A stretch of 23,105 nucleotides of DNA, taken from positions 1 through 23,105 of IMG/VR virus record IMGVR_UViG_3300025000_000430; one strand, 5' to 3'. A program made the position numbers and the translations under genes. Numbering within the stretch: the stretch's first letter is position 1; every line of letters begins with the position of its first letter. Below the pieces are notes generated by a model. It was not told the DNA's origin. It made no database searches and worked only from the letters and a program-made list of their open reading frames with translations. Positions 11,104-23,105 of this stretch are shown here, piece after piece. Origin of the DNA: a virus.

Positions 11104-14100
11104 ATGGGCAACATCTTTGATGATGTAGATTCTCAAATATCCTCATCTATCGACGCTTCCGATCCTGTACCGCCTCCGGTGCAAAACGCGACAGCAGGAA
11201 AAAGCAACAGCGCATTTGATCAGGTAGATTCTATCGCGAATACTACTCAGCCACAAGGACCGGAGAGAACAGTTCTCGGGACCCTTGAGGATGTCGGCAG
11301 TGGCATCAAGGATGTGGGGAAAATGCTTTATGATGTCCCCGTCCAGACAAAAGGCGCGATAGGCGGATTGCTCGAAGACGATGACCCAGATGCGAGAGTT
11401 ACCTTCGCCGATGAATGGCAGAGAGACGCAAAACAAAGGACCGAGCAACGGTCCGCAGAGTTGTCACCCGAGGATCGCGCAAAAAAGGTTTTCCCGCTTC
11501 CTGAATTCCTTTCTGAAAGCGGGGCAATCACCAGGGGAGACATTCAAGACACCAGCGCCAGCACAGGTTTTTCCGCTGTCGCAATGGGGGCCGGTTTTGC
11601 CGGTGGTACGTTGGGTTCTGCAGTCGGTCCATGGGGAACGGCAGGAGGTGCGCTTGCCGGTGCTGGTGCGGCGGCCTACAAAATGGACAAGGCGAATATC
11701 ACCAGACAGTTGATCGACGTTGCCGAAAAAACAAAGGGCGGCAGGCTTACTGATGAAGAACGTGGCGAGCTTCTTACCAGAACAGAAGCAGTCAGGGATG
11801 ACCATGCTTTATGGGAGGCGGGGCCAGAGGCGGTTGGCACTGCTCTTTCTCTTACCGGCATCGGCAAGATATTCAAGGGCGCAGCAACCGGCGCGACTCA
11901 AAAAATTATTGGTGGAATAGTCACATCTCTTGGTGGAGAGCTTTCAACCGAGACAATCACCCAAATCGGACAGAACATTGCCGAAAATGAGATGGGCCTT
12001 GGCGACGGGAACCCCATGTCGTTTTCTGACCCTGAAAGTTACAAAAAAGCCCTTCAAGAAGTTGGGCCGTCAGTTGTGACACTTTCTGGTGTCATGGGCG
12101 GCGGCGGATATGTCGCCGGGAAGGGCCGCGGTCTTATCGATGCAGCATTAGGTAAAGGTGGTAGCGAGGATGGCAACCTTGCAAGCGATATCGCCAACAG
12201 TGGTAAGGATCTAGACAAAGACCCTCTTGGAGCGGAGGTCAATAAACTTCTCTATGAAAGCCTCAACGGTGTCCAGGAATCTCCTGATTCACAAGCGGCC
12301 GCACATCTCGCCGGCATACTCACCGGGACCCCGATTGAAACGGAAGAAGACCGGGGGCAACGGGTCCAGGCCGCTCTTGATTTCTTCAATGATCCGCAGA
12401 TGCCCCAGGACGCGAAAGATCGATTCGTGAAGGAAGGGGTTTTCGCTCATCTCGGAATCGATGTTCCCGGTCAGGAAACTGGCTATGGTCCGGACCAGCA
12501 GCAGGGGTATTCCCCCATTCTTCCGGAAGGGGCCAGGGACCAGATAGACGCCGATGTTTTAAATCAGCAGTTTCCGGAAGAGACTCGCGACCTGTTGTGG
12601 GACCTTGCCGGCCAGGCGGAAGACGAGCAGGGCATGGCCGACACCAGAACCAGGAGACAGCGATTCGAGAACCTAAAGCAGGGCATGGCCGACCGGGAAC
12701 TCTCCAAGGATGAACTGGAAGCGAACCGAACTGGCCGACCGCTTACCGCCGAAGAATCCGCCCAGGCGTTTATGAACCAGGAGCCTACCCCGGCCATGAC
12801 CGATGTGGAGGGACGCCAGGCGCGCCTTGAAGATGCCGCTGCGGTTTTCGAGGCATTACCTCCTAAACAAACAGTTGTCGGTGAAGTGCCACAAAAAGAT
12901 GTGTCTGTTGATCAAACACAAGTCACACAAATAGGCACACAAAAACCTATAACATCCCAAGATAACACAATAAATATACCGACACAAGTCACACAAAATA
13001 TTGCCGGCTCTGATGTAAAAACCACGGTCGACAACACCGACTCCATCGTCCATGGGAAGGATATCAACCTCGCGCCGACCGAAGCCCAAAAGGAAGCAGA
13101 GAACTACAAGACCGCTCACACCTCAATCGACGGGCTGAACCTATCCATCGAGAACCATATCGGCTCTGTGAGATCCGGTAAGGACGCCACCGGCAAAGAT
13201 TGGTCCCAAGAGATGAAGGTCGACTACGGCCGCATACTCGGGTCAAAGGGATACGATAAGGATCATGTCGACATCATGGTTGCGCCCGGGTATCGGGGCG
13301 GGGCAGCGAACGCCTATGTGGTGAATCAGCATAAGGCAGACGGTTCCTTTGATGAACACAAGGTTGTGGTTGGACCGGACAGCGAGCAGAAAGCCCTTGC
13401 CCTCTACAATTCAAACTATGAAGCAGGGTGGACCGGTGGCAAATCTGTTACTCGAATCGCCATGCCGGTATTCAAGAAATGGGTGAGCGGCCAGGGCCCG
13501 AGCCGTGGTGCATTCGTCCGAGAAAGAACCGTCTTTCTTGAGACGAAAAAGCCAATTACCGAAACGAAGGCCCCTGTTTCTGGAACGGCAAAAGGAGAAA
13601 AGAGTCCATATCAAATGACCCCTGAAGAGTATACCGCAGGGATCACAGATACCGATGAAAAGGCTATCCGCCTGGCGGCCCATCCGCGCTCGGTGAAAGA
13701 GGCATTGCGGTTTGATCTTCCGGTACCTCTTCCTGTTCTGCAGGCGTACAGCAATAACCAGTGGGCGAAAAACGGTATCGCCAAACTTTACCCGGGACAG
13801 GCCGAGTCACCATCTCCCACCCCAACTGTTAAGGAAAACTTGACAGTTCAGCCTGATGTGCCAAGCGCACAAACAGCAACCGGGACCGTCAGCGATGGCG
13901 GCCCCCAGCTTGTTGAGCACGTCACCAAGAAAGGCAAGACCATCCGCGGCGTGGTCCGCACCGACATTACCTGGAAAGAAGCAAAGGCCATCGACAAATT
14001 CACCTTCAAAAAGGATGGCGGGTGGTTCATTCGTGAGCAGCACTTCGCACCTGTTGCGGCCGAGAAACCCGAGGACTTGCCGCCGGCGGCCGATGACACC

Positions 14101-17100
14101 GGACGGCAGATCGACGCGAAGAAGGAACAACTTCAGGAAATCAGGCAACAGATCCGCGAGTTTCCCGGAAGTCCTCAGAAGGTTTCTTCTCTCAGAGGGG
14201 AAGAGGCGAAACTGGAAAGCGATCTTCGCCAACTAAGGGGCGATGTCCAAAAACCACAAGGACAGAAAATTCCCCGCGGCAAAGCCGGCGAGATGCTGGC
14301 CGAAGGCGATGTGCGCCTCACCGCGACAGGTCGACAGACCACTCCTTTCCCGAAAGTGGCAACCGACTCGAACAGAAAGGCCGAGAACACCTTGAAGCGG
14401 GTGGACAGGTGGTTGATGGAAAACGCCCTGGCCGAGGCCGAGTCCCGGGGAGACGATTACAACGCCCGCATGTTCAGGGGCAACATCGATAAGCCCAGCC
14501 AGGCAGACAAGGATTCGGCCGAGATGTACCTGTTTGACGAGGTACAGCCGAAAGTTGTCCCGTCGATACTTAAAGACCTCGTACCACCCGAGCATAAGGG
14601 GAAAATAGAGGTTCCCCCAACCAAGCAGCTAGACGCCATCGAGCGAGAAGCGTCCCGCATGGAATTCACCAGTATAGACGGGTCAACTGAATTTATTGTT
14701 CGTGCTCCAGACGGCAGGGGAGGATTCACGAACTTTGCGAGATTCTCGGTGAACAGCAAAGGCAAACCTATCGGCGTGCGTCATTTTTATGAATCTCGAG
14801 CAACCAGGGATTCGGTTGAACTCGCCCTGAAACGTTTCGATCTTGCCTCAGTAAATCAACCATCGCAGACCGAGGAGAATAGCACAGCAACGGAATACCG
14901 TTACTACCCCAACGACCAAGTGGTAATAACCAACGGCGAGAACAAGGGCGAACGTGGAAGCGTCAGCCGATTCGTCCAGATCGGCAGACAAAAACCTCTT
15001 GTTTCCATATCCCTGGAAAACGGGAAATCTTTCGAGACCACTTCCGATAACGTTCGTCTCGTTGAGGAAAGGCCAGAGACAGAACCGAAGTCTACACTGG
15101 AACAACTCCAGGAAATGTCGGATGACGATATCGACAACCTCTTTGATGAGGTGGACCGGGAGCGGGCCGCCGAGAAACCGCCGAAGGCTGAAAGGGCTGA
15201 ATTGTCTCCTGCTGAAAATTTCGCGAAAATCGTCATTCCCCATACCTATGGAGATTACGATATACCAGAAGCGCTATTTGATCGATTCAAGGAAGCGGTA
15301 GCTGCTGGTGTAGGTTTCCGTATTTCCGGCGACAGGGCGAAGTTCGACAATGGCATGGAATGGATTATCCATGAAAGCCAAGCCATCATGACTGGTGATG
15401 ACAGTCATGGATGGGCCAGCACGATGTCGGCCGCGTCAATCAAGAGATCGATTTCTTCCTGGCTGAACGACCACGAGACCAAGGCACCGAGACAGCAGAA
15501 AGCGCCGAGCGCCCCCCGGTCGCCGAAGAGCAACCCGGCGGGCCCGCCAAGCCCGCCGGCGCCGAAGAAGACCGCCGGGCAGATCGTCAAGGAAGGCGGC
15601 ATTGCCGCGCAGTCGGCGGTCAAGGACGCCATGGCCGGTCTCACTGCTCTTTTCGGCGATCCGAATACCATCCGGATGGGACCTGCATTCGATGAAGAGA
15701 CATATCGAAAGGCCAAGCCTCATTTCGTCAATGCCTGGAATGGAGTTAAGGATCTTGGGTATTCCGTAAAGGAACTGATCAATTACTTCTATGGACAATT
15801 CGGTGACAAGATCCGTCCCTACCTGCAAAGATTCGTCAAGGATGTGCGGAATGGAGACCTCGAAGTCGAGTTGACAGCAGAGCCTAACAAGAGTACGCTT
15901 GAAGAAAGGGGAGGTGAACCATATGCCGATAACGAAAATAGAGCAGGTCAGCAAGATGGGCGGGATGTACGGACAGACGACGAAGCAGCTGCAGGCGCAG
16001 GCGATAATGCATTGGAAGGAGTGGCTCCCGAAGGAAGCGGCGGCACTGGAAGCGGCCGGGCTCCTGCAGGCGGAAGCGCTCAAGGCGGCCGAAAGAACGC
16101 AGGAGGGAATAAGAAGCCTGATGCAGGCGGGGTACCAGCACCACGAGGCGGAAGAGGTGATGCTGCCGAGGTATATTCTTCTACCGCCGGAGAAGGAAGT
16201 GGTAGAGGAGATGGAAAGAGAGTAAGCGGCCCCGCCACCACTCCCGCAGTAAATTTCCGCATCACCGAAGACGTTCGTCTCGGTCAAGGCGGCGAGACCG
16301 TGAAGTTCAACGACAATCTCGCCGCCATCAAAATCCTCAAGAAACTCGAATCGGAAAAGCGCCGGGCAACTCCGGAAGAGCAACGCGCCCTCGCCCGGTA
16401 TGTCGGCTGGGGCGGGCTGGCAAATTCATTCCGCAATGGCGTGACCGGCGAAGTAAAAAGCGGCTGGGAAGATCGTGTTGCCGAACTCGAGAAGATCCTC
16501 ACGCCCGAAGAACTGGCAGTTGCCAGGAACAGCACCAAGGCCGCGCATTACACCAGTTTCCCGGTCGTGAATGCGATGTGGAAGGCGGTCGAGCGCATGG
16601 GGTTCAGGGGTGGCAACATCCTGGAGCCTTCTGTCGGTGTCGGCAACTTCCTTGGCCTGATGCCGGAATCACTGGCCGGCAATACCAACATGATGGCGGT
16701 TGAGTACGACAATATCACGGCCGACATTGCCAAGCACCTCTACCCAAACGCCGCGGTATTCCATTCCGGTTTCCAGGATCTTCCATTGCCGGAAAACAGT
16801 TTTGATCTTGTAATCGGCAATCCGCCTTTCGGGCAAGACCGGCTCAACTTCCCGCACAACCCTGACCTCAATCCCTACTCGATTCATCACCAGTTCTTCC
16901 TGGCCGGAATGGACTCCCTGAAGCCAGGCGGTCTGCAGGTGATGGTGGTTTCCCGCTACCTGATGGACGGCAAGGACACCACCGTTCGTAAACTGCTGGC
17001 GGGGAAAGGAAAACTCCTGGCCGCGATCCGGCTGCCGGATACGGCTTTCAAGGAGAATGCCAAGACCGATGTCGTGACGGATGTTCTCTTCCTGCAGAAA

Positions 17101-20100
17101 TACACCGAGCGCGAACTCTCTGCGATGGAGACCGCCCGGGAGACCGCCGCAAAGCAGAAGATCACCCTGCCAGATCCGGAGTGGGTAGAAACCACCACCG
17201 TTCCAGATCCGCTCGGCAACGAGCCGATGAGGGTCAACGCTTATTTCAAATCGAACCCGTCAGCGGTTATCGGCCGGCTGGAACGATCCGGCTCCATGCG
17301 GGGGTCCGGAACCAATGTCAATGTGAAACTCGACAAGTCCGAGGACATCGCGGCGCGTCTCGATAAGATCATCAAGACCATGCCGGCGGATATCGCCGTT
17401 GAAGTGGCACCGGCCGACAAGCAGGCGCAGTACTTCAAGAATATGGTCGACGCCATGAAGATTTCCCTCTCCGGTCAGGAGTTGGGTTCAATATCCTTTA
17501 ATGAGTTTGGCGAATTGGAGCAGGTTATCGACCGCGAGACTGACGGCGGCGATACCATTCTATCCAAACGGGTTATCACACCGTCTTCTCCCTGGTCATC
17601 GGCTCTCAGCATGGACAAGGACGGCAAGTGGTTCCGCGATGTCGACAAGGTTGATGAGAAGGGGGCGAAGGTCAAAGTAGAGGGAACAAAGCGGAACCAG
17701 AAAACTCGGGAAATATTCGAGAAGGAAAGCGACATACCGGCCAACATGAAACTCGGCGAGCCGGGATACAATCGCCTGCGCGACTCCATACAGCTTCTCG
17801 AAACCCTCACCAAGCAAATCAACCTTGAGACCTCAGATTCTTCCGAGAAGGAGGTGGAGAGCAACCGGGCGAAACTGCGCCGGCAGTACGACGCCTATGT
17901 GAAAGAGCACTCGCACATCAATGACAGGAAGACGGCCAACATCCTGGCCGGCATGCCGAACAGCGCCCTACTCCTCTCCCTGGAGAGCAAGTACAAGCCG
18001 CCGATCGATAAGGACAAGGCGAAGAAACTCGGCATAGCGCCTCAACCGGCCATGGTTGAGCAGGCCACCATCTTGAGCAAGCGGGTCATCTCCCCGGTAG
18101 AAAAAGCCTCAACCGCGGCGACGCCAGCCGACGCCCTGGCCATCAACCTGTCGGAGACCGGACGAATTAACCTTGAGAGAGTGGCCGAACTGTTGGGCAA
18201 GAGCGAGGAGGAGACCGTCAAGGCCCTGCATGATGACCTTGATACCCCGCTCATCTTCTTCGATCCGGAAACTGACCGGTGGGAGCCGGCCGACGAATAT
18301 CTCGGCGGCAATGTTGTGCGGAAGATGGAGGCGGCCAAGGCCAAGGGCCTGGAGAAGAACGCCAAGGCACTGGAGAAGGTGTTGCCGGAACCGTGGACCG
18401 CCGACAAGGTGACGGCGACCATCGGCGGCGTGTGGATCCCTGCCGATGTCTATGCCGATTTCCTTTCTCACCTGACCAAGAACCCGGCCGAGGTGAAGTA
18501 TTTCCGCACCACGAACACCTTCCATGTTCAGGGCAGGACGGCCGGCCCGAGTAATTGGGGAACTCAGCAGCGAAGCCCGGTGGCACTCGTGGACGCCATC
18601 CTCAATAATCGGCCGATCAAAGTCACATACACCGACCATGAAGGAAAGACTCATGTCGACCAGGAAGTAACCGACGCGGCAATAGCCAAGGCTGCTGAGA
18701 TCAAGGACGAATTCGACGGGTGGGTCTTCAAGGATTCCGACCGCCGGAACAGGTTGCTGAAAATTTTCAACGACAAGTTCAATGTCCGGGTCACCAAGCA
18801 GCGCGACGGGCAACACCTGCAGTTCCCAGGGAAGGTGCCCGACGCCATCATTGCCATGCGCCGGCACCAGAAAAACGCCATATGGCGCGGCATCGTCGAC
18901 AAGGTGGTCCTATTTGACCATTCTGTCGGTTCCGGCAAGACCTTTACCAGCATCGCCAGGGCGCTCGAGCGGAAGCGAATGGGCATTTCCCGCAAGCCGA
19001 TGATCGTCGTACCGAACCACTTGGTTGAACAGTTTGCCAAGGACGTCTACAAGCTCTACCCGGGGGCCAAGCTGCTGGCCGCCGGCAAGAGTGACTTGGT
19101 GCCGGCGAAACGCCGCCGGATATTCGCCAAAATTGCAACCGGCGATTGGGACATGGTTATCGTCCCGCATTCCTCTTTCCAGTTTATCGGCATCTCTCCG
19201 GCTACCGAGACCAGATACCTGGAAGCGGAGCTGGCCATTGCCGAGGAGGCAGTGAAGGAAGCACTGGCAGAAACCGGCCATGATGGCGGAAGTTTCCGCA
19301 AGCCTTTGGCGGTAAAAGAAGCGGAGGCCCTGCGCGATAAGATCAAGAACCGGCTGGCCCAGGTCAAGGAGAGGAGCGGGAAGAAAGACAAACTCCTCAC
19401 ATTCGAGCAATTGGGAGTCGATGACCTAACAGTCGATGAATGCTTCACCTACAACACCCTAATCGAGACAAATGTCGGACGACTCAAGATAGGAGATATC
19501 GTCGTAAATAAGTTGAAAGTCTTAATAAAGTCTTTCGATTTTAATACTCATGCAGTAAGCTGGAAGCCGGTTGTTAATTGGTTCAAAAACGAGAGAACAA
19601 AAAAACTGGTTGAGGTGAAGCATGAGAGAGGTTCGTTTATTTGCACCGCAGCACATAAGGTGTGGACAGGTTGTGGATATCAAGAAGCTGGAAAAATATC
19701 AGTCGGAGATACCATCTACACTTCCTTCAGGACAAAGGGATCAGAGAATCACTTTTATCACAAAAACATGCTCGCATTGCGGGGAGGAATTTACCTTCCG
19801 GTCAATGGGGACGAAGAACAACTGCAAGCGGATATTTTGCTCAGGCAGCTGTTCGCGGAAGGCAAACTGGAAGAAGGACGGTTACAAAGAAAAATACAAG
19901 GAGAATATGCGCCATGTGTGGGAAAACTCCCCGCTGAAGGGGCGGAAATCGCCAGCATCGGCAAAACGAATGAAGGCGAACAATCCAATGCACGACTCCA
20001 AGATAAGGGCGAAAGTTTCAGCATCGTTGAAGGGGCGACCGTTCCCAGGGAAGAGGGGTGGGAACGGAACAGGGTTGACCGTCACGCAGCAGCAGCTGTT

Positions 20101-23100
20101 GCGCCACATCCCGGAGTTTTCTCCGGAGTATGCGGTGAAGACTCGGCCAATATGGGAGAAAATGCACAATCTTCCGAATCATTACAAAATAGACCTTGCC
20201 CTTCCGGAGAAGATGATTGCCATCGAACTGGATGGATATTCGCACAAGTCGAAAATAGGACAGGAGAGGGACAGGAAGAAGAGCAAGGCTTTAAGCCTTC
20301 TCGGGTGGAAGCTGTTACGATTCTCGAACCAGGAAGTGATGGACGATACGCCTTCAGTGGTGAAGACCATTCGTTCATGTATGACATCGAGGTAGAGGGC
20401 ACCCACAACTATTACGCGAACGGGGTTCTTGTCTCGAATTGCCACGAGTTCAAGAATCTCTTTTATAATTCATCACTTAACGTAAGAGGGATGGGGCCAA
20501 AAGGAGGAACAGGGAAGGCCTACGACATGTGGACCAAGACGCGGGTACTCCACGAAATGCCTAATGGTTCCATCGCCTTCATGACCGGCACACCGATATC
20601 GAACAGCGCGGTAGAGATGTATACCCTCATGCGCTACCTGACGCCGGAACTCCTTGAGGAGCACGGGCTTGAACATTTCGACGCCTGGCGGAATAACTTC
20701 GCTTCCGTCAACAGCGCCTTTGAGCCGACCGACTCTGGCAAGGGCCTCAAGGAAGTTTCCCGCCTTGGCCGCGACTGGACGAATACCCGGTCCCTCATGT
20801 ACCTTTATTACACTTTCGCCGATTGCGTATCGAATGACGACATCCAGAAGTGGTATGCCGAGGACAACAACGGCGCTCATTTTCCCCTGCCGAAGGTCAA
20901 GGGCGGCGGCCGGGTTGGTATCAACGTCAAGCCGACGCCGGCACAGCGCGGGATCATCGAGGACATCATCAGCGGCTTTGACGGACTGGAATCCATCTCT
21001 GATCCGAAAGAGCGCAATAAGGCGCGGCTGCGGCTGATGGACCGGGCCAGAAAGGTGTCACTAGACGCCAGGGCGGCCAGGCCGGGTATCGATAGCAACG
21101 AGGAAGGCGGAAAGCTCTCCAGGGTCTCCGATGAAGTTGTACGGCTCCATCGCAAGTGGACGGCCGAAAAAGGCACTCAGCTTATTTTCCTGGACCGGAG
21201 CGTCCCCAAGGCGAAAGGCGATGACAAGATTATCAAGACCTATGACGAGCTCATGGCCAAACTGGAGGCGGCCGAACGCACCGGAGATGAAGCGGCCATC
21301 CGGCGAATCGGTGACAGCCTGGAGCGGTTCGACCCGGTAGAGATCGAGGAACTGAGGATTGCCCAGGCCGGCGGCTGGAACGCTTATCAGCAGATCAGGG
21401 ATAACCTGGTCGAGCGCGGCATTCCCGCAAACGAAATCCGGTTTATCCAGGAAGCCGACACCGACGAGAAGAAAAAATTCCTCTTTGAGGAAGTGAACAG
21501 CGGCGCGGTGCGGGTGCTACTTGGATCCACTCCGCGAATGGGCGCCGGGACCAACGTCCAGGAGCGGCTCGTCGGCCTTCATCATGTCGATGTCACATGG
21601 AAGCCTTCCGATATCGAACAGCGCGAGGGTCGCATCATCCGCCAGGGAAACAGAATCGGTTTTGATGAAAACGGCAATTCTATCCGGGATGACTTCGAGG
21701 TGGAAATCCTGGCCTATACCACCGACACCACCGTCGATGCCAAGATGTGGGCGCTCAATTCCACCAAGCTGAAGATGATCAACGGCATTCGGCAGTATGA
21801 CGGTTCTTTCACCATGGAGTTTGACGATACCGACGCCGTGGGCATGGCCGAGATTGCGGCCATCGCCTCCGGGGAGCCGCTGCAGCTTGAGCGGGTGCAG
21901 CTGTCGGCCGAGATCGATAAACTTGAGCGGCTGAAGCGGGCGCATGAGCGGCAGCGGTGGGCGGCCGAAGACACCATTCACCGGATGGAGCGGACCATCG
22001 AGACGGCTCCGGCTATGATTAAGGAGTTGGAGACCGCGGCGAAGATAGTCGAGAAGGCCACCGCTGACGAGCGGCGCAAGTGGGAGTCGGCCACCGTCGA
22101 TATCGACGGCACCACTTATGGCGGCTCAGACGCCAGGAAAACCCTTGATAAGCTCATCGAGGAGTCGAAGAAGGAAGGCGCGGAGCCGTTCACCGTCACC
22201 ATCGACGGCAAGAAGTATCGGGCAAAGGCCAAGGCCGAGGATGCCCTTCATGCGGTCTTGGGCGATGCCGCTTTCTTTGCCATGAAGATCAACGGCAAGT
22301 CCTTCAAGCAGCGTGGCGAGGCCACCAAGGAAGTCGTTGCCCTGGCCAATGCCAAACTCGAGCAACTGGAAAAGCAGGATCCGGATTTTTCCGAATCCGA
22401 CGAGATCATGCTTGGGACCGTTACGGTTCATGGAATCGATATCGATCTTTCCATGCAGGTGTCGATGTCGGCTGTCGGTTATGAGAAGCACAAGGTTGTT
22501 GATCGGAAAAAACAGATTGAATTCTTCTTCGAGCGACGAATCGATCTGCCGGGCGGGAAGCAATCCTACCTCGTCAACGACAACTATGTCTCCACCCTTG
22601 CCGCCAACAGGGCGCATACGGCAATGCCTTCATTGTTCCGCGGCACCTTGGATACCATCGAAGATATCTCATCGAGGGCAAGTAATGAAGCCCGCCTTCT
22701 TGCGACAGCTGAGAAGGATTTGCCGACCTACAAGGAGGTGGCGGAAAAGCCATTCGCCAAAGAGGATGAACTGAAGCAGAAAGGGGATCGGCTGGTTGAA
22801 GTAGAGAAAGAGCTCAACAATCGGAAGGCGGCCGCAACCAATCAACAAAACATCAACGATGTCTTGTCAACTGCCAAGAAAGCGAAAGACGTCGTGCAAT
22901 GGTTGGCTGATAATGCCGAGAACGCGAGTTATCGAGTCATTGCCAACAAGATCAAAGACCATATCGGCGATGATATAAAACTGACGATCGTCAAGCCAGG
23001 TGAGAAGGTTGAGGGCGGTGTGCCTACCGCTCTAAACATTTCCTATGGCGTATATCATGTCGAGTTAAAAACCGGCAGAAAGGAGATATTCCTCAAACAC

Positions 23101-23105
23101 ACTGA
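11104..23105 (+). CDS. Giant polyvalent protein: methyltransferase-helicase with intein, 3' end outside window
   Basis: The frame starting at ATG 11104 has no stop up to the right edge: 4000 codons. Domains in order (residues): Gly-rich hydrophobic segments 154-191, 240-300 and 320-345; inorganic-pyrophosphatase-like domain 658-797; small polyvalent-associated domains about 838-899, 935-981 and 1059-1149; a KOW-like strand pair near 1266-1323 (NDQVVITNGENKGERGSV); an associated domain 1494-1581; a low-complexity linker 1600-1710; DarB-like methyltransferase from 1716; SNF2-type helicase about 2580-3540, interrupted by an intein at 2780-3112; then coiled coil and mixed domains to 4000. In the polyvalent class, such proteins are injected with DNA and shield it from host defences (P1 DarB is the model). 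The gene takes the place of the N4 virion RNA polymerase gene relative to the capsid block, but I see no polymerase motif. The last visible residues (VPTALNISYGVYHVELKTG) may begin a zincin-type domain. Confidence 0.88.
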   Translation, partial: MGNIFDDVDSQISSSIDASDPVPPPVQNATAGKSNSAFDQVDSIANTTQPQGPERTVLGTLEDVGSGIKDVGKMLYDVPVQTKGAIGGLLEDDDPDARVTFADEWQRDAKQRTEQRSAELSPEDRAKKVFPLPEFLSESGAITRGDIQDTSASTGFSAVAMGAGFAGGTLGSAVGPWGTAGGALAGAGAAAYKMDKANITRQLIDVAEKTKGGRLTDEERGELLTRTEAVRDDHALWEAGPEAVGTALSLTGIGKIFKGAATGATQKIIGGIVTSLGGELSTETITQIGQNIAENEMGLGDGNPMSFSDPESYKKALQEVGPSVVTLSGVMGGGGYVAGKGRGLIDAALGKGGSEDGNLASDIANSGKDLDKDPLGAEVNKLLYESLNGVQESPDSQAAAHLAGILTGTPIETEEDRGQRVQAALDFFNDPQMPQDAKDRFVKEGVFAHLGIDVPGQETGYGPDQQQGYSPILPEGARDQIDADVLNQQFPEETRDLLWDLAGQAEDEQGMADTRTRRQRFENLKQGMADRELSKDELEANRTGRPLTAEESAQAFMNQEPTPAMTDVEGRQARLEDAAAVFEALPPKQTVVGEVPQKDVSVDQTQVTQIGTQKPITSQDNTINIPTQVTQNIAGSDVKTTVDNTDSIVHGKDINLAPTEAQKEAENYKTAHTSIDGLNLSIENHIGSVRSGKDATGKDWSQEMKVDYGRILGSKGYDKDHVDIMVAPGYRGGAANAYVVNQHKADGSFDEHKVVVGPDSEQKALALYNSNYEAGWTGGKSVTRIAMPVFKKWVSGQGPSRGAFVRERTVFLETKKPITETKAPVSGTAKGEKSPYQMTPEEYTAGITDTDEKAIRLAAHPRSVKEALRFDLPVPLPVLQAYSNNQWAKNGIAKLYPGQAESPSPTPTVKENLTVQPDVPSAQTATGTVSDGGPQLVEHVTKKGKTIRGVVRTDITWKEAKAIDKFTFKKDGGWFIREQHFAPVAAEKPEDLPPAADDTGRQIDAKKEQLQEIRQQIREFPGSPQKVSSLRGEEAKLESDLRQLRGDVQKPQGQKIPRGKAGEMLAEGDVRLTATGRQTTPFPKVATDSNRKAENTLKRVDRWLMENALAEAESRGDDYNARMFRGNIDKPSQADKDSAEMYLFDEVQPKVVPSILKDLVPPEHKGKIEVPPTKQLDAIEREASRMEFTSIDGSTEFIVRAPDGRGGFTNFARFSVNSKGKPIGVRHFYESRATRDSVELALKRFDLASVNQPSQTEENSTATEYRYYPNDQVVITNGENKGERGSVSRFVQIGRQKPLVSISLENGKSFETTSDNVRLVEERPETEPKSTLEQLQEMSDDDIDNLFDEVDRERAAEKPPKAERAELSPAENFAKIVIPHTYGDYDIPEALFDRFKEAVAAGVGFRISGDRAKFDNGMEWIIHESQAIMTGDDSHGWASTMSAASIKRSISSWLNDHETKAPRQQKAPSAPRSPKSNPAGPPSPPAPKKTAGQIVKEGGIAAQSAVKDAMAGLTALFGDPNTIRMGPAFDEETYRKAKPHFVNAWNGVKDLGYSVKELINYFYGQFGDKIRPYLQRFVKDVRNGDLEVELTAEPNKSTLEERGGEPYADNENRAGQQDGRDVRTDDEAAAGAGDNALEGVAPEGSGGTGSGRAPAGGSAQGGRKNAGGNKKPDAGGVPAPRGGRGDAAEVYSSTAGEGSGRGDGKRVSGPATTPAVNFRITEDVRLGQGGETVKFNDNLAAIKILKKLESEKRRATPEEQRALARYVGWGGLANSFRNGVTGEVKSGWEDRVAELEKILTPEELAVARNSTKAAHYTSFPVVNAMWKAVERMGFRGGNILEPSVGVGNFLGLMPESLAGNTNMMAVEYDNITADIAKHLYPNAAVFHSGFQDLPLPENSFDLVIGNPPFGQDRLNFPHNPDLNPYSIHHQFFLAGMDSLKPGGLQVMVVSRYLMDGKDTTVRKLLAGKGKLLAAIRLPDTAFKENAKTDVVTDVLFLQKYTERELSAMETARETAAKQKITLPDPEWVETTTVPDPLGNEPMRVNAYFKSNPSAVIGRLERSGSMRGSGTNVNVKLDKSEDIAARLDKIIKTMPADIAVEVAPADKQAQYFKNMVDAMKISLSGQELGSISFNEFGELEQVIDRETDGGDTILSKRVITPSSPWSSALSMDKDGKWFRDVDKVDEKGAKVKVEGTKRNQKTREIFEKESDIPANMKLGEPGYNRLRDSIQLLETLTKQINLETSDSSEKEVESNRAKLRRQYDAYVKEHSHINDRKTANILAGMPNSALLLSLESKYKPPIDKDKAKKLGIAPQPAMVEQATILSKRVISPVEKASTAATPADALAINLSETGRINLERVAELLGKSEEETVKALHDDLDTPLIFFDPETDRWEPADEYLGGNVVRKMEAAKAKGLEKNAKALEKVLPEPWTADKVTATIGGVWIPADVYADFLSHLTKNPAEVKYFRTTNTFHVQGRTAGPSNWGTQQRSPVALVDAILNNRPIKVTYTDHEGKTHVDQEVTDAAIAKAAEIKDEFDGWVFKDSDRRNRLLKIFNDKFNVRVTKQRDGQHLQFPGKVPDAIIAMRRHQKNAIWRGIVDKVVLFDHSVGSGKTFTSIARALERKRMGISRKPMIVVPNHLVEQFAKDVYKLYPGAKLLAAGKSDLVPAKRRRIFAKIATGDWDMVIVPHSSFQFIGISPATETRYLEAELAIAEEAVKEALAETGHDGGSFRKPLAVKEAEALRDKIKNRLAQVKERSGKKDKLLTFEQLGVDDLTVDECFTYNTLIETNVGRLKIGDIVVNKLKVLIKSFDFNTHAVSWKPVVNWFKNERTKKLVEVKHERGSFICTAAHKVWTGCGYQEAGKISVGDTIYTSFRTKGSENHFYHKNMLALRGGIYLPVNGDEEQLQADILLRQLFAEGKLEEGRLQRKIQGEYAPCVGKLPAEGAEIASIGKTNEGEQSNARLQDKGESFSIVEGATVPREEGWERNRVDRHAAAAVAPHPGVFSGVCGEDSANMGENAQSSESLQNRPCPSGEDDCHRTGWIFAQVENRTGEGQEEEQGFKPSRVEAVTILEPGSDGRYAFSGEDHSFMYDIEVEGTHNYYANGVLVSNCHEFKNLFYNSSLNVRGMGPKGGTGKAYDMWTKTRVLHEMPNGSIAFMTGTPISNSAVEMYTLMRYLTPELLEEHGLEHFDAWRNNFASVNSAFEPTDSGKGLKEVSRLGRDWTNTRSLMYLYYTFADCVSNDDIQKWYAEDNNGAHFPLPKVKGGGRVGINVKPTPAQRGIIEDIISGFDGLESISDPKERNKARLRLMDRARKVSLDARAARPGIDSNEEGGKLSRVSDEVVRLHRKWTAEKGTQLIFLDRSVPKAKGDDKIIKTYDELMAKLEAAERTGDEAAIRRIGDSLERFDPVEIEELRIAQAGGWNAYQQIRDNLVERGIPANEIRFIQEADTDEKKKFLFEEVNSGAVRVLLGSTPRMGAGTNVQERLVGLHHVDVTWKPSDIEQREGRIIRQGNRIGFDENGNSIRDDFEVEILAYTTDTTVDAKMWALNSTKLKMINGIRQYDGSFTMEFDDTDAVGMAEIAAIASGEPLQLERVQLSAEIDKLERLKRAHERQRWAAEDTIHRMERTIETAPAMIKELETAAKIVEKATADERRKWESATVDIDGTTYGGSDARKTLDKLIEESKKEGAEPFTVTIDGKKYRAKAKAEDALHAVLGDAAFFAMKINGKSFKQRGEATKEVVALANAKLEQLEKQDPDFSESDEIMLGTVTVHGIDIDLSMQVSMSAVGYEKHKVVDRKKQIEFFFERRIDLPGGKQSYLVNDNYVSTLAANRAHTAMPSLFRGTLDTIEDISSRASNEARLLATAEKDLPTYKEVAEKPFAKEDELKQKGDRLVEVEKELNNRKAAATNQQNINDVLSTAKKAKDVVQWLADNAENASYRVIANKIKDHIGDDIKLTIVKPGEKVEGGVPTALNISYGVYHVELKTGRKEIFLKHT
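11563..12135 (+). other. Gly-rich hydrophobic N-terminal segments of the polyvalent protein
   Basis: Residues 154-191 contain SAVAMGAGFAGGTLGSAVG and TAGGALAGAGAAA, a glycine-zipper-like stretch. A second amphipathic Gly-rich stretch (GKIFKGAATGATQKIIGGIV) lies at about 254-274, and a third (SVVTLSGVMGGGGYVAG) at about 323-340. Such stretches are common in phage ejection proteins that insert into membranes. They support the idea that the giant protein is a virion component delivered with DNA, but the function is inferred. Confidence 0.5.
13075..13494 (+). other. Inorganic-pyrophosphatase-like domain of polyvalent protein
   Basis: Residues 658-797 run from PTEAQKEAENYKTAHTSIDG through LSIENHIGSVRSGKDATGKD, YGRILGSKGYDKDHVDIMVA and FDEHKVVVGPDSEQKALALY to NYEAGWTGGKSVTRIAMPVF. 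The order I-E-N-x-x-G-S-x-R-S-G, K-D-H-V-D-I-M-V-A-P and F-D-E-H-K-V-V-V-G matches the pyrophosphatase-like domain described in phage polyvalent proteins. The conserved D-H-V-D acidic pair is kept, so metal binding is plausible. Its substrate in these phages is not established. Confidence 0.72.
15583..15846 (+). other. Polyvalent-associated helical domain
   Basis: Residues 1494-1581 contain GLTALFGDPNTIRMGPAF, FDEETYRKAKPHFVNAWNGV and GDKIRPYLQRFVKDV. The F-D-E-E-T-Y-x-K-A-K-P-H-F phrase with a following G-D-x-I-R-P-Y-L-x-R-F-V is one I associate with large polyvalent proteins of phages and conjugative elements. No catalytic function is known to me. The domain ends 76 bases before the overprinted gene begins. 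Confidence 0.6.
15908..15916 (+). promoter_or_regulatory. Ribosome-binding sequence of overprinted 100-residue gene
   Basis: GGGGAGGTG lies 6 bases before the ATG at 15923. It is a near-complete Shine-Dalgarno match in the middle of the giant reading frame, where nothing in the giant protein requires it. It decides the ATG over the upstream in-frame TTG at 15899. Confidence 0.6.
15923..16225 (+). CDS. Overprinted small gene in +1 frame of the polyvalent gene, unknown function
   Basis: 100 residues, ATG 15923 to TAA 16225, in a frame shifted from the surrounding giant gene. A near-perfect ribosome-binding sequence precedes it, and the first in-frame stop upstream is TGA at 15872. The protein has ordinary, balanced composition and looks helical: ITKIEQVSKMGGMYGQTTKQ, AIMHWKEWLPKEAAALEAAG, EGIRSLMQAGYQHHEAEEVM, LPRYILLPPEKEVVEEME. 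Most wrong-frame products in this window are Arg/Ser/Pro-rich and are not like this. Over the same bases the giant protein is a Gly/Ala/Arg-rich linker of low complexity (residues 1607-1708), as expected when the second frame carries the constraint. The phrases M-Y-G-x-T and G-Y-Q-x-H-E-A-E-E-V suggest a conserved family, but I cannot name a function. Host-interaction or regulation is possible. Confidence 0.68.
   Translation: MPITKIEQVSKMGGMYGQTTKQLQAQAIMHWKEWLPKEAAALEAAGLLQAEALKAAERTQEGIRSLMQAGYQHHEAEEVMLPRYILLPPEKEVVEEMERE
16249..17180 (+). other. DarB-like N6-adenine methyltransferase domain
   Basis: Residues 1716 to about 2025. An N-terminal part holds LGQGGETVKFNDNLAAIKIL and ARYVGWGGLANSF. 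Motif I, ILEPSVGVGNFLGLMP, starts at residue 1839 and should bind S-adenosylmethionine. Motif IV, NPPFG, is at residue 1906 and is the adenine N6 catalytic loop. HYTSFPVVNAMWKAVERMGF before motif I and the later VSRYLMDGKDTTVRKLLAGK and IRLPDTAFKENAKTDVVTDV follow the usual order. In this class a methyltransferase is fused to an SNF2-type helicase. Motif I has Ser-Val-Gly where Ala-Gly-Ile or similar is common, which should be tolerated. The predicted role is methylation of incoming phage DNA. Confidence 0.82.
19612..19617 (+). promoter_or_regulatory. Ribosome-binding sequence of the nested endonuclease gene
   Basis: GAGGTG lies 4 bases before ATG 19622. In the endonuclease frame a TGA overlaps it at 19616-19618, so the frame cannot be reached from upstream and independent initiation is the simplest way to translate it. 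The same GAGGTGAA octamer precedes the other overprinted gene at 15911-15918. Confidence 0.5.
19622..20395 (+). CDS. Homing endonuclease overprinted inside the intein, +1 frame
   Basis: 257 residues, ATG 19622 to TAG 20395, wholly inside the intein but out of frame with it. Residues 50-77 form a zinc knuckle (C50, C53, C73, C77). Residues 103-147 carry a NUMOD3-like DNA-binding segment (NPMHDSKIRAKVSASLKGRP). Residues 187-239 form the nuclease core: HYKIDLALPEKMIAIELDGY with D191, E202 and D204, H208, RDRKKSKALSLLGWKLLRF and NQEV. This matches the Vsr-like EDxHD/DUF559 type of homing nucleases. It should cut intein-less alleles of the helicase gene and drive copying of the intein. The first 40 residues, read over intein block B, look unlike a domain and may be a consequence of the overlap. 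Later ATG codons would remove part of the zinc knuckle. Vsr-like nucleases are known between the halves of phage split inteins; here the intein is not split. Confidence 0.83.
   Translation: MREVRLFAPQHIRCGQVVDIKKLEKYQSEIPSTLPSGQRDQRITFITKTCSHCGEEFTFRSMGTKNNCKRIFCSGSCSRKANWKKDGYKEKYKENMRHVWENSPLKGRKSPASAKRMKANNPMHDSKIRAKVSASLKGRPFPGKRGGNGTGLTVTQQQLLRHIPEFSPEYAVKTRPIWEKMHNLPNHYKIDLALPEKMIAIELDGYSHKSKIGQERDRKKSKALSLLGWKLLRFSNQEVMDDTPSVVKTIRSCMTSR

Follow-up and report, generated by a model that had tools for sequence, protein, structure and literature searches.

In phages, Dassa et al. (2009) reportedly found genes fractured by split inteins that are accompanied by EDxHD (Vsr-like) endonucleases. 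I-Bth0305I is an EDxHD homing endonuclease that we take to be intron-encoded. Ordinary inteins carry their endonuclease as part of the intein polypeptide, as described for SPbeta bnrdE (PMC3943268). The nearest known case of a nuclease hidden in another frame is the ShiLan domain, in which, according to PMC11855218, a homing-type endonuclease is out of frame while the host frame stays open; the domain is also named in PMC12613952. The authors of PMC11855218 find an HNH nuclease in the ShiLan insertion, no intein or intron splicing part and no detectable ribosome-binding site, and on the subject of overlapping frames they refer to Gosselin et al. 2025 (10.1101/2025.01.02.630785) and Gorbalenya 1998. 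Our literature search found no intein with an out-of-frame nuclease, although an earlier description may exist (Gosselin et al. 2025 and Gorbalenya 1998 were unread). Here we analyse the IMG/VR virus record IMGVR_UViG_3300025000_000430 over its full length of 23,105 bases (hereafter, the window), in which a gene for a DarB-like antirestriction helicase/methylase carries an intein. We conclude that this element is very probably a mobile intein that does not carry its homing endonuclease as a domain: the enzyme would be a protein of its own, its gene lying in +1 across the intein linker.

The first-pass annotation of the window had claimed an intein with an out-of-frame nuclease, both frames being open, and an intact host gene, with the nuclease overprinted on the intein linker. 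Its coordinates proved correct, and the arrangement is borne out (Table 1). The intein reading frame comprises 333 codons with zero stops, running from C1 to an SN that precedes the extein Cys, behind an upstream extein ending in TVDE. The host part at 17500-23103 matches phrog_10089 (DarB-like antirestriction) with an E value of 4.4e-295, and a single open reading frame (ORF) runs through the intein, where a fractured gene would have its host broken into two ORFs. Residues of a class 1 intein are present (C1, T69 and H72 of block B, and N333 followed by Cys); across 51 alignment rows, C1 and H72 are invariant and T69 is found in at least 90%. The nuclease frame is open stop-to-stop from 19619, and Pfam DUF559 is found in this +1 frame with an E value of 1.4e-11. 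DUF559 is detected in 67 of 67 family members, and the residues D151, E162, D164, H168 and D177 are invariant across 62 alignment rows.

Table 1. Features of the intein locus, in window coordinates
Feature	Position	Strand	Remarks
Host gene, DarB-like antirestriction helicase/methylase ORF	11104..23103	+	Still open at contig end
Intein, 333 residues	19441..20439	+	Splits the Walker B (DECH) motif between VDE and CHEFKN
N-terminal splicing part, intein residues 1-96 (C1, T69, H72)	19441..19728	+	Model mostly confident
Overprinted intein linker, residues 97-283	19729..20289	+	Predicted mostly unstructured
C-terminal splicing part, residues 284-333, SN then extein Cys	20290..20439	+	Model and alignment
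Shine-Dalgarno-like GAGGTGA	19612..19618	+	Precedes ATG 19622; overlaps upstream in-frame TGA (19616-19618)
EDxHD/DUF559 nuclease gene, 257 residues	19622..20395	+	Frame +1 relative to intein
Zinc-ribbon-like part of nuclease, four conserved Cys	19766..19860	+	C10, C13, C33, C37 in at least 90% of 62 rows
DUF559 (EDxHD) catalytic domain	20177..20377	+	D151, E162, D164, H168, D177 (numbered from 19742)
Possible co-conversion tract 3' of insertion	20440..20595	+	Excess mismatches to L002

The locus shares with ordinary inteins a Hint splicing domain, insertion at a conserved motif, a homing nuclease aboard and the existence of degenerate forms; however, its nuclease, being read in +1, is no part of the intein polypeptide and no in-frame domain of a full-length intein. 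SPbeta bnrdE was considered as an earlier case of an overlapping nuclease and rejected, since its motifs, presumably LAGLIDADG, are in frame and it has no overlapping nuclease. Like the ShiLan domain, the window holds an out-of-frame endonuclease within an open host frame, but this is a DUF559 (EDxHD) nuclease inside a Hint intein, from a family enriched in Shine-Dalgarno sequences, whereas an HNH nuclease and no splicing part are reported for ShiLan. With fractured genes the window shares an EDxHD nuclease between intein halves, and three surveyed loci (L073, L082 and L085; L numbers denote loci of our survey) are of that kind; in contrast, the window and 148 clusters of relatives keep an unbroken host ORF, with the nuclease overlapping the open intein frame.

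Structure prediction is consistent with a Hint fold interrupted by an unstructured linker for the intein frame, and with a nuclease resembling I-Bth0305I for the +1 frame. In the intein-frame model, both ends form a mostly confident Hint fold around the linker, for which block means of the predicted local distance difference test (pLDDT) are about 38-56, mostly below 55. Foldseek returned 13 matches for this model at E <= 0.001, the best being solved inteins, with the Mtu RecA intein at the top (E 3.5e-5). The nuclease model has a mean pLDDT of 86.9, and its top Foldseek match is the I-Bth0305I catalytic domain (3r3p, labelled a mobile intron protein in the PDB; E 1.2e-3). The E, D, H and D residues are conserved, whereas overprinting on an intein sets the window nuclease apart from I-Bth0305I.

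Several observations weigh against our interpretation of the window. No Foldseek match of the nuclease reaches E <= 0.001 (best 1.2e-3, Vsr 6.9e-2), and its sequence profile reaches I-Bth0305I at E 0.05 only. The penultimate residue of the intein is Ser, where at least 90% of the 51 rows have the block G His; Pfam Intein_splicing in the host frame (E 5.1e-7, 30 bits) falls under the curated cut-off of 35.8; and the window copy is divergent, lying on a long branch with a top identity in the tree set of 44% over 124 columns. Given this divergence, the SN ending and the sub-cut-off score, the window intein may splice poorly. The SN ending (window 20434-20439) also occurs in L030, L052 and L062.

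Because the window is a single metagenomic contig, and distant inteins with an in-frame DUF559 nuclease exist (L287, L290-L292 and L294), the overlap might be thought a chance open frame, or an assembly indel pair hiding an ordinary in-frame endonuclease. Relatives were surveyed with three queries. Scans of viral contigs with the window nuclease or intein as single proteins gave zero relatives, and the family was reached by alignments only. The nuclease alignment retrieved the best 80 of 290 viral loci and 42 genomic loci, which with five phages and the window form a first set of 128. The second query was the intein N-block alone (a profile of seven N-blocks; best 80 of 145 loci), and the third the fractured nucleases (best 80 of 88 loci). 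The hidden Markov models (HMMs) for locus annotation were built from +1 loci, and the survey is no census of all inteins.

In the first set, 95 of the 128 loci (72 viral, 17 genomic, 5 phage and the window) show one or both intein blocks next to the nuclease with the frame uninterrupted; at all 95 the nuclease is in +1, with zero intein-frame stops within the nuclease match. Another four (L073, L082, L085 and L086) have intein blocks but 14-35 stops, six (L058, L066, L070, L077, L107 and L109) have the nuclease without an intein, and 23, all genomic, are distant DUF559 proteins. Titles of genomic loci include Verrucomicrobia, Elusimicrobia, Riflebacteria, Ruminococcus and Ktedonobacter. The N-block query, which knows nothing of the nuclease, found a +1 nuclease in 71 of the best 80 of 145 loci, the other nine being shortened inteins (L176, L186 and L194) and six inteins at other sites. 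Among the best 80 of 88 loci of the third query, 63 are +1 without stops, eight are split, one has a single stop (L273), one is decayed (L283), one lacks an intein (L253) and six are in frame.

For the pooled count, loci were clustered at 95% DNA identity, which removes the overlap of surveyed stretches within contigs, and a nuclease match at E <= 1e-15 plus an intein N-block was required. This left 157 non-redundant loci, of which 148 are +1 with no stop (in 146, a single ORF contains the two blocks), five are +1 with many stops, one is +1 with one stop, three are in frame and none is in +2; the three many-stop clusters that were read in detail are fractured genes. Outside the 157 stand L283 (E 2e-14), L186, L194, L176, C-block-only loci and free-standing nucleases, and L117 was excluded for having a spurious N-block match only (E 6.7, off2). 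The comparison of frames among relatives, proposed in the first-pass annotation, thus placed the nuclease in the intein frame only in a distant subfamily with another insertion site (the three in-frame clusters).

The nuclease and intein queries also match 44 and 47 phage records, respectively, annotated only as helicase, hypothetical or coil-containing protein. In all five that were opened (Vibrio phages 104E43.1, CP-T1 and 1.088.O, Corynebacterium phi673 and Pseudomonas MR14), the intein lies between DE and CHH of a helicase with the nuclease in +1; these records annotate the helicase and list no gene for the overlapping nuclease. The recurrence of one register in 148 of 157 clusters, across independent assemblies and sequenced isolates, refutes chance or assembly error for the family and leaves it a negligible probability for the window. 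The overprinted arrangement is conserved. The element was also seen two residues further on, between DE[AG]H and C, in other helicases (L182, L190, L165, L167, L170, L111, L260 and L278), so that no fewer than two positions within Walker B serve as its insertion sites.

For a stop to arise in the intein frame, a T-ending nuclease codon must be followed by one that starts with AA, AG or GA. With the nuclease protein and codon usage fixed, the expectation is 8.4 such stops within the 208 codons of the nuclease match, and not one of 20,000 synonymous shuffles of the window nuclease was stop-free, so that the chance of roughly one in several thousand first estimated for the open frame was too weak a figure. 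T-ending codons in the window number 0 of 37 before AA, AG or GA and 30 of 105 elsewhere (p = 4e-5); over 81 non-redundant nested loci, the counts are 0 of 2679 and 2500 of 7892, indicating that the intein frame is held open by selection. No avoidance was detected in the controls, namely three fractured loci (75/157 at stop-making positions vs 125/245 elsewhere) and six free nucleases (120/267 vs 237/534). The constraint is thus gone where the host gene no longer needs the open frame.

Substitution patterns bear on the rival view that nothing but the splicing frame counts, the nuclease being a relic in decay. Shortened forms with nuclease relics or none (L176, L186, L194, L165 and L167) fit such decay, and the survey turned up no close relative with an intein from which the window's own constraint could be measured. 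However, in 10 independent pairs, substitutions in the overlap fall at nuclease codon positions 1/2/3 as 410/332/758, favouring nuclease third positions, and the catalytic and zinc-binding residues of the window nuclease are intact, making a relic very unlikely. Outside the overlap, the same pairs follow the intein frame (N block 223/170/427, C block 14/13/66, extein 500/398/1203). The overlap itself follows the nuclease codons.

The linker had been called apparently meaningless, and this description stands, the constraint on it being almost solely the absence of stops. Its grand average of hydropathy (GRAVY) does not differ from that of stop-free synonymous shuffles (p = 0.17), and its hydrophobic fraction is slightly lower (0.220 vs 0.224, p = 6e-4). 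A linker function beyond staying open was considered and is not claimed, the linker being otherwise like such shuffles, and a conserved LQ in the intein-frame alignment was put down, by hand reasoning, to the shifted reading of conserved nuclease codons.

Recoding offers one explanation for the exclusive use of +1. In this register, 117 of 117 nuclease proteins can be coded with 0 intein-frame stops, since every NNT has a synonym NNC and stops are always removable without changing the nuclease. In the third frame only 17 of 117 can be cleared, and the window would keep three stops; this frame is mostly unclearable because Met followed by a codon starting with A always makes TGA. Being the sole frame that can always be cleared synonymously may explain why +1 is exclusive. 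A single origin would explain it as well.

How the nuclease would be translated was addressed through its initiation signals. A Shine-Dalgarno match of at least five bases precedes 32% of 115 nuclease-frame ATGs, compared with 6% of 115 other-frame ATGs (p = 5e-7), and 76 of the 81 nested loci have a nuclease-frame ATG in the tested stretch, 35 with such a match. Counting against independent initiation, 46 of the 81 loci have no nuclease-frame ATG with a 5-base match, five have no ATG there at all, and L067 has no ATG, GTG or TTG ahead of the nuclease match, which leaves room for frameshifting or rare starts. Programmed frameshifting would give an extein-IntN-nuclease fusion (IntN and IntC denoting the N- and C-terminal intein halves) and no free protein from the same overlap. 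The +1 offset of every nested locus and the weak or absent start signals of some loci, L067 having none, would suit it. However, the enrichment of Shine-Dalgarno sequence plus ATG is confined to the nuclease frame, and the distance from the upstream stop to the start codon is often just a few codons, as in L015, L018, L021, L040 and L102. We therefore consider frameshifting unlikely and favour a separately initiated nuclease.

Mobility of the element is suggested by empty sites. For the close, intein-less relatives L002, L004 and L005, the alignment with the window reaches precisely to base 19440, the matched stretches being mostly 91-97% DNA-identical to it. Downstream of the insertion, the window differs from L002 at 27 of 120 positions in 20476-20595 vs 88 of 1380 further downstream (p = 6e-8), while 20440-20475 cannot be aligned to L002 without a codon indel. 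Following the insertion, the window has Cys, L003 and L006 have Ala, and L002, L004 and L005 have Glu. The diverged tract and the Cys would fit a possible co-conversion through which the Cys required for splicing came in. Two points tell against co-conversion: the divergence of the tract could instead have arisen in the lineage of L002, where the site (EEHDIGKN) is itself odd, and the upstream flank (92/900 mismatches) is also slightly more diverged than the far downstream sequence. EEHDIGKN, found at 5592-5630 in L002, L004 and L005, is one residue longer than the EAHEFKN of L003 and L006, and might be a target-site change that resists cutting. A search for direct and inverted repeats in 19300-20600 found one two-copy 13-mer and nothing notable.

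The first-pass annotation had further proposed a link between in-frame inteins and fractured genes. In L073, L082 and L085, a TAA terminates the frame of the N-extein and IntN. The nuclease begins within IntN in +1, and within its final part opens the frame of IntC, which is that of IntN; by sequence, this layout is the nested anatomy with stops permitted. In the nuclease tree, the three form one clade (99) beside the nested L041 (90), with free nucleases scattered; the tree is unrooted and quick, with long branches including that of the window. The link thus has support, in that relatives of the same nuclease lie between split-intein halves in the same register. L273:2658-3827 is of the nested type, with a single in-frame TAA in the linker and extein flanks that look like DnaX, and is possibly an intermediate toward a fractured gene or a sequencing error. 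L283:2515-3134 is a decayed fractured locus with its blocks in off2/off0, the nuclease between the halves being broken by stops and frameshifts. Loss of the nuclease is seen in L176, a 135-residue intein without one, and in L186 and L194, inteins of 142-146 residues with a nuclease remnant in the same frame as the full nuclease. Together with L165, L167 and L111, they make up a decay series of short same-lineage inteins (135-200 residues) in which the nuclease is absent or truncated in +1.

From the two frames and their conservation, the selection against stops, the evolution of the nuclease frame, the initiation signals and the empty sites, all read from sequence, we infer a model of nuclease translation, intein splicing, cleavage, homing, the route to fracture and the direction of evolution. 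The host frame would be read from the N-extein through the Hint N-part and an unstructured linker of approximately 190 residues (the nuclease gene read out of its own register) into the Hint C-part and the C-extein, and splicing of this precursor would restore the DECH motif of the helicase. Ribosomes would also initiate within the N-part of the intein, using an ATG served by a separate Shine-Dalgarno sequence, and so yield the free nuclease. This EDxHD nuclease presumably cuts intein-less Walker B sequences where DE meets CH, so that the element is copied in with flanking DNA; it probably spreads the insert, in many bacterial viruses. T-ending nuclease codons before AA, AG or GA would be purged because an intein-frame stop would destroy the host protein. 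The T-to-C changes never alter the nuclease, which makes +1 the only register that the two genes can share in every case. Should the halves gain trans-splicing, stops could accumulate and a fractured gene result.

A broader proposal has, in our judgement, about an even chance of being right: that overprinted inteins are an unrecognised phage-wide class with a free EDxHD nuclease translated from within the intein frame and a single origin, in the sole frame that silent changes can keep open in all cases, spreading by cleavage at the DE-CH junction of unrelated helicases and ATPases across phages of many bacterial phyla, decaying to mini-inteins and directly ancestral to fractured split-intein genes. 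With overprinting, how much nuclease is made, when, and what becomes of it could be controlled separately from splicing. The presence of three arrangements (nested or overprinted, one stop, and fractured) in one nuclease family makes the origin of split inteins testable, and the family provides an extensive natural collection of overlapping genes that obey a single, simple and measurable rule: no NNT before AAN, AGN or GAN.

Other inteins were encountered in the survey. In L287, L290, L291, L292 and L294 (and in L288, C block only), a distant DUF559 nuclease is in frame within an intein between HPN and CRC; this is the canonical arrangement for the same nuclease superfamily, with 17-23 stops in the frame that is open elsewhere. 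L195, L203, L206, L208, L212 and L214 are inteins at other sites without the family nuclease and were set aside. The long linkers of L206:2935-4152 and L208:3001-3801 revealed no nuclease in the intein frame by reading, without a family-library scan. In L214:3001-5355, the 785-residue "intein" joined by the HMMs resembles a pair of inteins that share a gene and are separated by a short extein.

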